Below, piece after piece: positions 23,058 through 26,011 of a stretch of 64,000 nucleotides of DNA (the stretch's first letter is position 1; each line of letters opens with the position of its first letter). The DNA is from Massilia rubra (GTDB lineage Bacteria; Pseudomonadota; Gammaproteobacteria; Burkholderiales; Burkholderiaceae_D). Where the stretch lies: NCBI RefSeq assembly GCF_011682065.1, contig NZ_VUYU01000028.1:1-64000 (forward strand), in the 5' to 3' direction. The notes under the pieces were generated by a model. It was given only the letters and a program-made list of their open reading frames with translations, searched no databases and was not told the DNA's origin. The translations under genes were made by a program, and so were the position numbers.

Positions 23058-23999
23058 TTACAGCTCGTAAGTTTCTTTGGTGCCGCTCATGGCCGACTCG
23101 ACCAGCTTGCGGTTCAGGGTCGGCGCCAGCAATTCGATGAAAGTATAAATGTAGCTGCGCAGATAGGCGCCCTGCTTGACGGCCACGCGCGAGATATTCA
23201 TGCCGAACAAGTGCCCCACTGGAATGGCGCGCAGGTTCTTGTCGCGCTCGGCGTCGAAGGCCATGCCCGCTATGATACCAATACCCATGCCAAGTTCCAC
23301 ATAGGTTTTGATGACATCGGCGTCGATGGCTTCGAGCAGCACGTCGGGTTTGAGCCCGCGCAGCCCGAAAGCGTGGTCGATCTTGCTGCGTCCGGCAAAC
23401 GCGGCGTCGTAGGTAATCAGCGGGTAGGTGGCGATTTCTTCCAGCGACACGGCCTTCGATTTGAGCAAAGGATGGTCGGGCGGCACCACCACCATGTGCT
23501 CCCATTGATAACAAGGCAAGGTGATCAATCCATCAATGCCGGCGATCGACTCGGTGGCAATGGCCAGGTCGGCCTGGTCGCGCTGGACCATCTCGGCGAT
23601 CTGGCGGGGGTTGCCTTGCAGCAGGGACAAGCGTACCTTGGGGTACTTGAGCATGAAGGCCTGCACCACTTTCGGCAAGGTATAGCGCGCCTGCGTATGC
23701 GTGGTGGCAATGGTGAAACTGCCGCTGTCCTGGGCCGCGTATTCCTTGCCGATGCGCTTGAGGCTGTCGATCTCCTGCATGATCAGCTCGACGGACTCCA
23801 GCACCAGCCGGCCGGGCTCGGTCAACCCCCGGATGCGCTTGCCGTGGCGGGTGAAAATATCAACACCAAGCTCTTCTTCAAGCTCGATAATGGCTTTCGA
23901 CACCCCGGGCTGGGACGTGAACAAGGCCTTGGCCGCATCGGTCAGGTTGTAATTCTGCCGCACGGCTTCACGGACGAAGCGTAATTGATGAAGGTTCAT
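23058..23999 (-). CDS. cysB: CysB-family LysR regulator of sulfur assimilation
   Basis: 313 residues from MNLHQLRFVREAVRQNYNLT (ATG at 23999); an in-frame upstream start at 24029 adds ten residues without support. N-terminal LysR HTH (LTDAAKALFTSQPGVSKAII), then the ligand-binding domain with CysB/Cbl features (HTQARYTLPKVVQAFMLKYP, PLITYDAAFAGRSKIDHAF). CysB/Cbl regulators activate cys genes when bound by N-acetylserine or O-acetylserine. It is divergent from cysI across 323 bases, which supports direct control of that operon. Cbl-type function cannot be excluded. Confidence 0.88.
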   Translation of the reverse strand: MNLHQLRFVREAVRQNYNLTDAAKALFTSQPGVSKAIIELEEELGVDIFTRHGKRIRGLTEPGRLVLESVELIMQEIDSLKRIGKEYAAQDSGSFTIATTHTQARYTLPKVVQAFMLKYPKVRLSLLQGNPRQIAEMVQRDQADLAIATESIAGIDGLITLPCYQWEHMVVVPPDHPLLKSKAVSLEEIATYPLITYDAAFAGRSKIDHAFGLRGLKPDVLLEAIDADVIKTYVELGMGIGIIAGMAFDAERDKNLRAIPVGHLFGMNISRVAVKQGAYLRSYIYTFIELLAPTLNRKLVESAMSGTKETYEL

Positions 24000-24163
24000 T
24001 GCTGTTCTCGTAGGCCGGAAGATACTCAAAATAAATATCTACCAGCATTTTATAAGAATGCTTATGCCGGATACGCATATAAGCAAATAAATTCTTAGTC
24101 CTTTGGAATAAAGGATGAGTTTATTACTATTGAGGCTAGTTTGGGGACAGTCTCATGGCTAAA

Positions 24164-24299
24164 CCCCTTAGAAAGCCGAAGGGGGCTCGCAAAACCGTAG
24201 CGAGCGGCGCCAGGTTTGTCCGAGAAGCGCAGCCGTACGAAGGTACGGTGAGCATCGCAGGGCAGACCTGGCACCGCGCAGTAGGTTTGGCGAGCCCCC
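24164..24299 (+). ncRNA. Nested long-hairpin element in the cysI leader (candidate structured RNA or repeat)
   Basis: Four stacked stems are visible. Outer P1 GGGGGCTCGC (24181-24190) pairs with GCGAGCCCCC (24290-24299). It continues as AAACC/GGTTT. GCGG (24204-24207) pairs with CCGC (24274-24277). GCCAGGTTTG (24209-24218) pairs with CAGACCTGGC (24263-24272) with one G-U, extended by TCC/GGG. The apical CCGTAC/GTACGG (24233-24238, 24243-24248) closes on GAAG. Upstream CCCCTT (24164-24169) can instead pair with AAGGGG (24179-24184), competing with P1. The element ends 23 bases before the cysI ATG. It has no T-run, so it is not a plain terminator. Leader RNA or dispersed repeat cannot be decided here. 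Confidence 0.55.
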
Positions 24300-24322
24300 C
24301 ACCAAAAATATCAGGATGACAT

Positions 24323-26011
24323 ATGTACCGTTACGACCAATACGACCACCTCATCGTCAGGGAACGCATCGCGCAATACCGCAGCCAGGTGGAGCGCCGC
24401 ATCAACGATGAGCTGACCGAAGCCGAATTTGTACCGCTGCGCCTGCAAAACGGCCTGTACATGCAGCGCCACGCCTACATGCTGCGCATCGCGGTGCCGT
24501 ACGGCCTGCTGTCATCAAGCCAGATGCGCATGTTCGGCCACATCGCGCGCAAGTACGACCGCGGCTACGGCCACTTCACGACGCGCCAGAACATCCAGTT
24601 CAACTGGATCGAGCTCGAACAGACGCCCGACATCCTGCTTGATCTGGCCTCGGTCGAGATGCACGCCATCCAGACCTCGGGCAACTGCATCCGCAACATC
24701 ACGTCCGACGAATACGCCGGCGTGGCGGCGGACGAAATCATCGATCCGCGCCCGTACGCCGAAGTGCTGCGCCAGTGGAGCACCTTCCACCCCGAATTCG
24801 CCGCCCTGCCGCGCAAGTTCAAGGTGGCGATCAACGGCGCCGTGGAAGACCGCGCCGCCATCGCCGTGCACGACATCGGCCTGACCGTGGTGCGTAACGA
24901 CGACGGCGAGATCGGCTTCAAGGTCATGGTCGGCGGCGGCATGGGCCGCACCCCGATCCTGGGCAGCGTGGTGCGCGCGTTCCTGCCGTGGCGCCACATG
25001 CTGACCTACATCGAAGCGGTCATGCGCGTCTATAACAGCTACGGCCGGCGCGACAACAAGTACAAGGCGCGCATCAAGATCCTGTTGAAAGCCATGGGCG
25101 CCGAAGAATTCACGCGCCAGGTCGAGGCAGAATGGACCGACCTGAAAGACAGCGCATCGACCCTGACCGACGAAGAAATGGCGCGCGTGGCGGCCTACTT
25201 CACGCCGCCGGCGTACGACACCCTGGCCAATATCGACGTGCGTGCCGAACACGCCGACAACAAGGCCTTCGGCAACTGGCTGACCCGTAACGTCAAGCCG
25301 CACAAGGTACCCGGCTACGCCATCGTGCTGCTGTCGCTCAAAAAAACCGGCGTGCCGCCGGGCGACGCCACCGCGACCCAGATCGACTTCGTGGCCGACC
25401 TGGCGGACCGCTACAGCTTCGGCGAACTGCGCGTGACGCACGAGCAGAACCTGGTGCTGGGCGACGTAAAACAGTCGGCCCTGTTCGCACTGTGGCAGGA
25501 AGCCAAGGCGCATGGCCTGGCGACGCCGAATATCGGCCTGTTGACCGACATTATCTGCTGCCCCGGCGGCGACTTCTGCTCGCTGGCCAACGCCAAGTCG
25601 CTCCCGATCGCCGCCGCCATCGCGGAGCGTTTCGACAACATCGACTACCAGCACGACATCGGCGAGATCGAACTCAATATCTCGGGCTGCATCAACGCCT
25701 GCGGCCACCACCACGTCGGCTCGATCGGCGTGCTCGGTGTGGACAAGGATGGCAGCGAGTGGTACCAGGTCTCGATCGGCGGCGCGCAGGGTAACAACGC
25801 GGCCATCGGCAAGATCATCGGACCGTCCTTCTCGGCGCTGCAAATGCCCGAAGTGATCGACCGCCTGCTGCAGGTGTACGTGCGCGAGCGCCACGAAGAC
25901 GAAAAATTCGTGGACACCGCCCAGCGCCTGGGCGTCGCCCCGTTCAAGGAACATGTGTATGCCACGCCGATCAAGGCGGGCGAACTGGTTGGAGAAGACC
26001 ACTATGCTTGA
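24323..26011 (+). CDS. cysI: Assimilatory sulfite reductase haemoprotein subunit
   Basis: 562 residues after a CAGGATGAC site. Reduces sulfite to sulfide with six electrons, using sirohaem and a [4Fe-4S] cluster. The cluster/sirohaem ligands are visible as Cys413-x5-Cys419 (CCPGGDFC) and Cys456-x3-Cys460 (GCINACGHHHVG). The N-terminal half has the ferredoxin-like repeat HFTTRQNIQFNWIELEQTPD and the second repeat RVTHEQNLVLGDV. The family also contains nitrite reductases; the cys operon context decides for sulfite. No cysJ flavoprotein is present, so electrons probably come from another donor. It overlaps DUF934 by 8 bases. Confidence 0.93.
   Translation: MYRYDQYDHLIVRERIAQYRSQVERRINDELTEAEFVPLRLQNGLYMQRHAYMLRIAVPYGLLSSSQMRMFGHIARKYDRGYGHFTTRQNIQFNWIELEQTPDILLDLASVEMHAIQTSGNCIRNITSDEYAGVAADEIIDPRPYAEVLRQWSTFHPEFAALPRKFKVAINGAVEDRAAIAVHDIGLTVVRNDDGEIGFKVMVGGGMGRTPILGSVVRAFLPWRHMLTYIEAVMRVYNSYGRRDNKYKARIKILLKAMGAEEFTRQVEAEWTDLKDSASTLTDEEMARVAAYFTPPAYDTLANIDVRAEHADNKAFGNWLTRNVKPHKVPGYAIVLLSLKKTGVPPGDATATQIDFVADLADRYSFGELRVTHEQNLVLGDVKQSALFALWQEAKAHGLATPNIGLLTDIICCPGGDFCSLANAKSLPIAAAIAERFDNIDYQHDIGEIELNISGCINACGHHHVGSIGVLGVDKDGSEWYQVSIGGAQGNNAAIGKIIGPSFSALQMPEVIDRLLQVYVRERHEDEKFVDTAQRLGVAPFKEHVYATPIKAGELVGEDHYA

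Follow-up and report, generated by a model that had tools for sequence, protein, structure and literature searches.

The hairpin in the leader of cysI, within a 64,000-nt stretch of Massilia rubra DNA (contig NZ_VUYU01000028.1, hereafter the window), is very probably a copy of an IS5-type MITE, 121 bp long and non-autonomous. This reading is preferred because copies of the hairpin are dispersed, cysI leaders empty of it are found, 4-bp target duplications flank copies more often than expected by chance, and there is an IS with nearly identical ends, the same duplication, and the same C-NNNN-G target. MITEs as such are a known kind of element; the combination of a conserved, strand-specific core with varying arms appears, as judged from the sequences compared here, to be new. 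No description of the family was found in the titles, abstract beginnings, and motif strings of the open PMC literature.

The cysB-cysI locus and its hairpin

The hairpin lies between a cysB-type regulator gene and cysI, the latter being followed by cysH and cysD. The CysB-family regulator, CysH, and CysD have NCBIfam matches above cutoff; the cysI product has nine, mostly to sulfite/nitrite reductase models and all under their cutoffs, and the name given in the original prediction is kept. The features of the region are the following.

23058-23999, minus strand: cysB-type LysR regulator (NF009327, CysB family regulator, 548.1 bits vs. a cutoff of 402)
24047-24146, plus strand: conserved promoter-proximal block, recognized by eye in 16 of 16 genus genomes with a cysI match
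24164-24184, plus strand: proposed competing pairing of CCCCTT (24164-24169) with AAGGGG (24179-24184), equilibrium probability < 0.002
24180-24300, plus strand: very probable IS5-type MITE copy of 121 bp, made up of the modelled stretch 24181-24299 (119 positions) and one further base at either end
24181-24196, plus strand: left terminal arm GGGGGCTCGCAAAACC, diverged from the consensus GGGACCTCGAAAAACC
24197-24283, plus strand: structured core, in which the internal loops CGTAGCGAGCG / CGCGCAGTAG and GAGAAGCGCAG / GAGCATCGCAG are near-invariant
24232-24249, plus strand: apical stem-loop with GAAG loop (from the window sequence, the fold, and the 89-copy alignment)
24284-24299, plus strand: right terminal arm, complementary to the left arm and forming with it the 14 pairs of helix 1
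24323-26011, plus strand: sulfite/nitrite-reductase haemoprotein gene (cysI)

The ATG at 23999 is a chosen start for cysB, for which a longer TTG frame exists, and the element limits at 24180 and 24300 were set from copies with target duplications. The block at 24047-24146 contains TTATAAGAATGCTTATGCC...ATAAGCAAATAAATTCTTAG...TTTGGAATAAAG...CTAGTTTGGGG, common to the same 16 genomes, and is a good candidate for CysB-type binding and divergent promoters. The MITE copy sits between this block and the cysI start and probably lies in the 5' untranslated region (UTR) of cysI. The element would have inserted between the cysB/cysI promoter region and the start codon, adding a hairpin of ~120 nt to the probable cysI 5' UTR, where its effect on cysI expression, if any, would be incidental or unproven.

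As read from the window sequence, the outer stem pairs GGGGGCTCGC (24181-24190) with GCGAGCCCCC (24290-24299), and the GAAG loop (24239-24242) is closed by the stem 24232-24238/24243-24249. Region 24121-24322 has a minimum free energy of -100.5 kcal/mol, compared with -64.2 ± 4.3 kcal/mol for 200 shuffles, none of which was as good (z = -8.4); the opposite strand folds too (z = -6.9). The original prediction had described a nested hairpin upstream of cysI, with an outer stem and a GAAG-capped apical stem, and all of its coordinates are correct, as is the distance of 23 bases from 24299 to the cysI ATG (24323). It had also called the 323-base cysB-cysI gap long for such a locus, and this is borne out within the genus, where gaps with a full element measure 323, 330, and 346 bases and those of element-free genomes 180-218 bases. 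Because gap lengths follow the presence of the element, the long gap is attributed to the MITE insertion.

Searches of Rfam returned no family at the gathering threshold for the hairpin region and three sub-threshold matches at E <= 10. One of these, sX9, was rejected as a candidate, with 22.5 bits against a threshold of 44 and no repetition at E <= 1 in 12 other copy-bearing loci.

Dispersed copies and their genomic setting

BLAST finds 22 matches in the M. rubra genome at E <= 1e-16, the cysI copy included. A covariance model built from 21 oriented copies recovers 21 full-length copies on 14 contigs, one copy of 64 nt, and one degenerate copy, with the cysI copy (24181-24299) scoring 134.3 bits (E = 5.1e-29) as a member of the training set itself; copy L022 and the short copies were omitted from alignment A1. 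Many copies at unrelated loci of the same genome were what the original prediction had asked for under its second reading, that of a dispersed repeat landed in the leader, and this reading is upheld by the copies as well as by the empty cysI sites, the target duplications, and the IS5-family IS with matching ends described below. The copies are short and non-coding, spanning 118-148 nt over the modelled stretch in those measured.

The element occurs in 8 of 17 genomes of the genus (E <= 0.01) and in 79 of 145 genomes of the family, representing 32 of 44 genera (E <= 0.001). Its core is found in 37 of 200 genomes of the order at E <= 1e-6, which belong to 19 families, 13 families having a match at E <= 1e-12. 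Exact matches to a 31-base core are present in Massilia mucilaginosa, M. frigida, M. aquatica, a Janthinobacterium, and a Burkholderiaceae MAG. Carriage as plasmid or phage cargo was considered and discarded, the window copy having no match there.

The setting of copies was described with a home-made gene caller, trained on the window and then used on other genomes. With this caller, 50 of 81 copies lie between co-directional, 11 between divergent, and 6 between convergent genes, 1 overlaps a called gene, and 13 have no called neighbour on one or both sides; the cysI copy, in a divergent setting, belongs to a minority. Of 75 copies that overlap no called gene and have at least one called neighbour (L108 and five copies with no called neighbour being omitted), 24 are no more than 5 nt from a gene 3' end, and 2 are equally close to a 5' end. 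It should be noted that the 81-copy set, like the 100-copy set used below, contains orthologues (12 sets). Copies show no orientation bias toward neighbouring genes (26 same vs. 24 opposite). Neither is there a replication-strand bias in the closed genome G134, with 19+/30- in one half and 13+/23- in the other (p = 0.82) if the record begins near the origin; in G033, the counts by replication half are 9+/8- and 4+/3-.

Several individual copies deserve mention. Two or three copies stand side by side on one strand at G300:C9:133834-134193, G011:C18:16752-16971, and G336:C1:551407-551656. Short versions, namely L023 (G000:C20:87004-87067), L196 (G131:C50:15781-15830), and L197 (G131:C71, near 149578), retain the arms and lack the apical part of the core, and therefore the ends alone may suffice for movement. 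L002 of M. rubra (G000) and L158 of G134, from different genera, occupy the same site with homologous flanks 74-80% identical, which represents either a very old insertion or a repeated target.

Target duplications and the partner IS

Exact 4-bp duplications flank 21 of 100 MITE copies, compared with a mean of 0.54 and a maximum of 4 in 2000 shuffles, in a count that assigns the outermost G and C to the element and omits L178, which has no left flank; they are missing in the other 79. Direct repeats of at least 5 bp, with small offsets allowed, accompany 23 of 81 copies (shuffled mean 0.77, maximum 5, 1000 shuffles). The duplications stand in a C-NNNN-G setting in 15 of 21 cases on each side. 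By flank comparison, the cysI copy has no recognizable target duplication.

The end sequence was searched in G008 and G131, where 12 places besides the known copies were examined. Ten of them, in G008, comprise eight IS left ends, most cut by contig ends, and two MITE-like remnants; the remaining two, from G131, are shortened MITEs. With a length of 1232-1236 bp, the IS carries the gene for a 341-aa IS5-family transposase, which scores 275 bits against NF033581 (cutoff 140) and exceeds the cutoffs of PF01609 and PF05598. Its ends read GGGCACCTCGAAAAACC on one side and GGGCACCTCGAATTACC or close variants on the other. The MITE consensus end, taken with its outermost base, is GGGGACCTCGAAAAACC and agrees with the IS end GGGCACCTCGAAAAACC at 16 of 17 positions, and 126 of 200 MITE ends show no more than 3 mismatches to it. 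Both IS ends are present at 11 of 15 loci, and 9 of these 11 have exact 4-bp duplications, preceded by C in 8 and followed by G in 8. The MITE thus shares its ends and its duplication length with an autonomous IS that encodes an IS5-family transposase. This transposase would recognize the MITE ends and move the MITE in trans, as ends, duplication, and target all suggest. The sequence beside the IS ends is, by eye, unlike the MITE core.

Of the genus genomes, 7 of the 8 that carry the MITE also have the IS, as do 2 of the 9 that lack the MITE (Fisher p = 0.015, with clades that are not independent), most MITE bearers forming one clade. The two MITE-free genomes hold decayed or partial IS copies only, and G011 has the element with no IS detected. 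The M. rubra draft genome contains one two-ended IS copy of 1232 bp, which has no duplication and a transposase match only from residue 55 onward, and two further partial copies at contig ends. Among the matches listed, the closest plasmid relative is from Pandoraea; with 71.6% identity and near-identical ends, it lacks the 4-bp duplication and is annotated only as IS5 family transposase.

Each end of the cysI copy has 12 of 17 positions in common with the IS end and departs from it at 5. Given these diverged ends and the lack of a duplication, the copy at cysI seems to be an old or decayed one, whose insertion is inferred from the family.

Covariation in the core

Across 89 copies (alignment A3), both partners have changed in 33 of 44 pairs, including all 14 of helix 1, and paired cells make up 96.9%, compared with 84.8% after shuffling and 32-43% with slid partners. 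Among 43 matches from outside the genus (alignment A5, 42 of them distinct), 35 of 44 pairs have changed on both sides and 96.1% of cells are paired. The two sets overlap, 23 of the 42 A5 sources being also in A3. Moreover, alignments A3-A5 were fitted to a model for which 21 of their copies had been used, and pair counts lean toward it (slid controls 31-43% vs. 96-97%). A3 omits L152 (the same place as L099) and L159 (an orthologue of L156); A5 includes a second L247 copy, omits L237, L239, and L241 of the seven G220 loci, and has L165 and L243, which are one place, as two rows, counted twice in the wobble tally. Unpaired core columns are mostly invariant or nearly so in the 89 copies, the apical loop less.

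Wobbles are found mainly on one strand. Across 41 pairs with a Watson-Crick majority there are 173 G.T and 30 A.C cells, along with 88 other mismatches, in related copies whose cells are not independent events; by position, G.T is ahead at 26 and A.C at 7. Outside the genus, in the partly overlapping set, the counts are 105 and 17. The core is a conserved structured sequence that recurs across the order, with its folding apparently kept on one strand. A fold directed at host genes should show an orientation bias, and a fold that serves the element itself need not.

Comparisons of orthologous copies, 13 in all at 12 sites, gave 25 double changes, 22 of them from one Watson-Crick pair to another, where independence predicts about 8 of any kind; 7 of the 22 come from the distant pair L002/L158. 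The same comparisons contain 30 single changes that keep a wobble or standard pair and 26 that break or mend one. With 22 double changes but 26 pair-altering singles, inserted copies preserve their pairing in many cases but not in all. These comparisons do not tell selection, templated repair, and conversion between copies apart.

Complementary arms could in principle be maintained with no selection at all, by palindrome-templated repair (template switching between arms) or by gene conversion. The double changes at settled copies fit such a process, as do 14-15 nt segments that come and go in the arms of orthologous copies. Repair of this kind should erase internal-loop mismatches, yet these are mostly near-invariant, and it should have no preference for G.T, yet G.T leads by 173:30 overall and by 105:17 outside the genus; we regard it as a rather unlikely explanation.

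Filled and empty cysI leaders

A cysI match is present in 16 of 17 genus genomes, one in each. The full element occupies the cysI leader in three of these, M. rubra (G000), G006, and G016, and 12 have neither element nor remnant there. In G011, with a gap of 260 bases, a short degenerate version seems by eye to be present in the leader, with no model match at E <= 1e-9. The cysI leader is uninterrupted in G004, G008, G003, and G002, all from the clade of G000 (support 100/99), so that the element is missing at cysI in four of the six closest relatives in this seven-species clade; therefore, it is not needed for cysI there. For the three filled leaders, the tree allows a gain with losses or repeated gain. 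The copy most similar to that at cysI in G000 is an unrelated one in G003 (0.899), followed, among others, by the G016 cysI copy (0.882); the G006 and G016 cysI copies are both closest to a third copy. The fragmentary G013 was left out of the tree and of this similarity comparison.

These data bear on the idea that the MITE was recruited locally, in M. rubra, G006, and G016, to set the stability or translation of cysI mRNA. Three full copies, and perhaps one short copy, fall within one short part of the leader, settled copies often preserve their pairing (the 22 Watson-Crick double changes against about 8 of any kind expected), and MITE hairpins can alter mRNA processing, according to the review PMC10969869. 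Against recruitment, four close relatives manage with no element at cysI, the 26 singles that break or mend pairs and the large share of L002/L158 among the doubles (7 of 22) weaken the case from pairing, and the cysI copies resemble copies elsewhere most closely, so there is no sign of site-specific conservation. Local co-option is thus improbable.

A leader RNA or riboswitch for sulfur assimilation, which would sense sulfide, cysteine, O-acetylserine, or sirohaem and switch folds to control cysI, was the first reading of the original prediction and is now very improbable. The hairpin has the expected position, in the probable 5' UTR on the cysI strand, between conserved promoter-proximal DNA and the start codon, and it combines a strong fold with compensatory changes. 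The compensatory changes, offered as evidence for a riboswitch, are indeed abundant (33 of 44 pairs) but prove to be a property of the repeat family at any site. The prediction looked for consistent linkage to cys genes, and the result is one cysI match per genome against 21 full-length copies on 14 contigs in M. rubra, with 12 of 16 genus cysI leaders lacking the element; consistent linkage to the genes of one pathway is therefore not seen in the cysI leaders of the 16 genomes. The absence of an orientation bias and of an Rfam match at threshold also speaks against a sulfur-responsive leader.

The two competing folds proposed for the switch are borne out in part. The sequences can pair, and the alternative hairpin is the prevailing fold at three of the nine transcript lengths modelled (ends 24230, 24260, and 24295), all nine being assumed to begin at 24143, which is a point in favour of a switch. 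At equilibrium, the outer stem has a probability of 0.98 and the alternative hairpin one of < 0.002, so that the alternative is transient and a stable two-state fold is not obtained. The alternative pairing joins the terminal G-run of the element with a C-run of the leader, and the C-run is also found in element-free cysI leaders of close relatives. With the MITE as the preferred reading, a false riboswitch candidate is removed. A hairpin brought in by a MITE can show real covariation and pass for a riboswitch, and covariation alone does not amount to a regulatory RNA.

Relation to known repeats

Derivation from ERIC, REP/BIME, or Tn3 (as a TIME) rather than from an IS5-type element is extremely improbable: the length and intergenic habit recall ERIC, and the G-rich ends recall those of Tn3, but the 4-bp duplications and the matching IS5-family IS fit none of them. 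ERIC sequences are imperfect palindromes of a length similar to that of the 121-bp element, dispersed and mostly intergenic. They differ in that the element has IS5-type ends and 4-bp duplications and that a blastn search of 20,395 E. coli records with the window copy gave no match (E <= 0.01), E. coli being a carrier of both ERIC and BIME copies. For Tn3, whose target duplications are 5 bp, no transposase domain (PF01526) was matched in the M. rubra genome at E <= 0.001. REP/BIME sequences, described in PMC3733652 as GTAG-tagged extragenic palindromes, resemble the element in being extragenic palindromes, and the element core contains GTAG; REPs measure 20-40 bp, in contrast to 121 bp with target duplications.

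Among MITEs, QMITE2 of Coxiella and the Correia elements of Neisseria lie in transcribed untranslated regions, with QMITE2 mainly after genes, according to PMC10969869. The present element resembles QMITE2 in that 24 of 75 copies lie within 5 nt of a gene 3' end (2 of 75 for the 5' end), and differs from both in host group and ends. We know of no strand-specific covariation in QMITE2 or Correia elements. With IS5-derived MITEs the element has in common that it is short and multi-copy, with ends near-identical to those of a 1.23-kb IS and an equal 4-bp duplication and target preference. It departs from them in that its interior is not recognizably IS-derived (by eye) and that a conserved core is kept across the order in varied arms.

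Arms in other families

In the copies examined from other families, the same core motifs are set in different arms, which are largely self-complementary (90-95% between the left and the inverted right end in the four genomes sampled, G220, G320, G252, and G336). The varying arms may reflect gradual co-divergence with a partner IS or an exchange of arms. A tentative possibility is that the ~87-nt core is an old, order-wide element that works through the fold of one strand, as RNA or as single-stranded DNA, and takes on the terminal repeats of the IS5-type transposon that happens to be active in its host, its fold serving its own propagation or a trans-acting partner, not the adjoining genes. 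If the strand-specific fold is indeed selected, the family would provide a tractable, order-wide case in which the structure of a DNA transposon passenger is important, as single strand or as RNA, together with a candidate transposase.

The arms also vary within orthologous sets. A segment of 14-15 nt (e.g., GGACTTTCGTGTCCC), which on its own could fold into a minor side hairpin, may occupy the left or the right arm, may be in both, or may be missing altogether, and orthologous copies differ in this respect; it concerns L009, L017, L018, L020, L021, L066, L122, L123, L132, L166, L168, L170, and L171.

Exact 4-bp duplications were absent from the copies of G320 (8), G252 (4), G336 (1), and G134 (6). 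In G220, where the arm reads GGGAACTTCTAAAAACC, they flank 6 of 7 copies. No partner IS for the G220 arm type was identified among the matches listed, out of 236 in total. These 236 matches, on G220:C1 of a 3.4-Mb genome, were obtained with the arm GGRACTTCTAAAAACC at up to 2 mismatches, compared with 6 for a reversed-pattern control, which suggests that elements with this arm have multiplied in a large burst.
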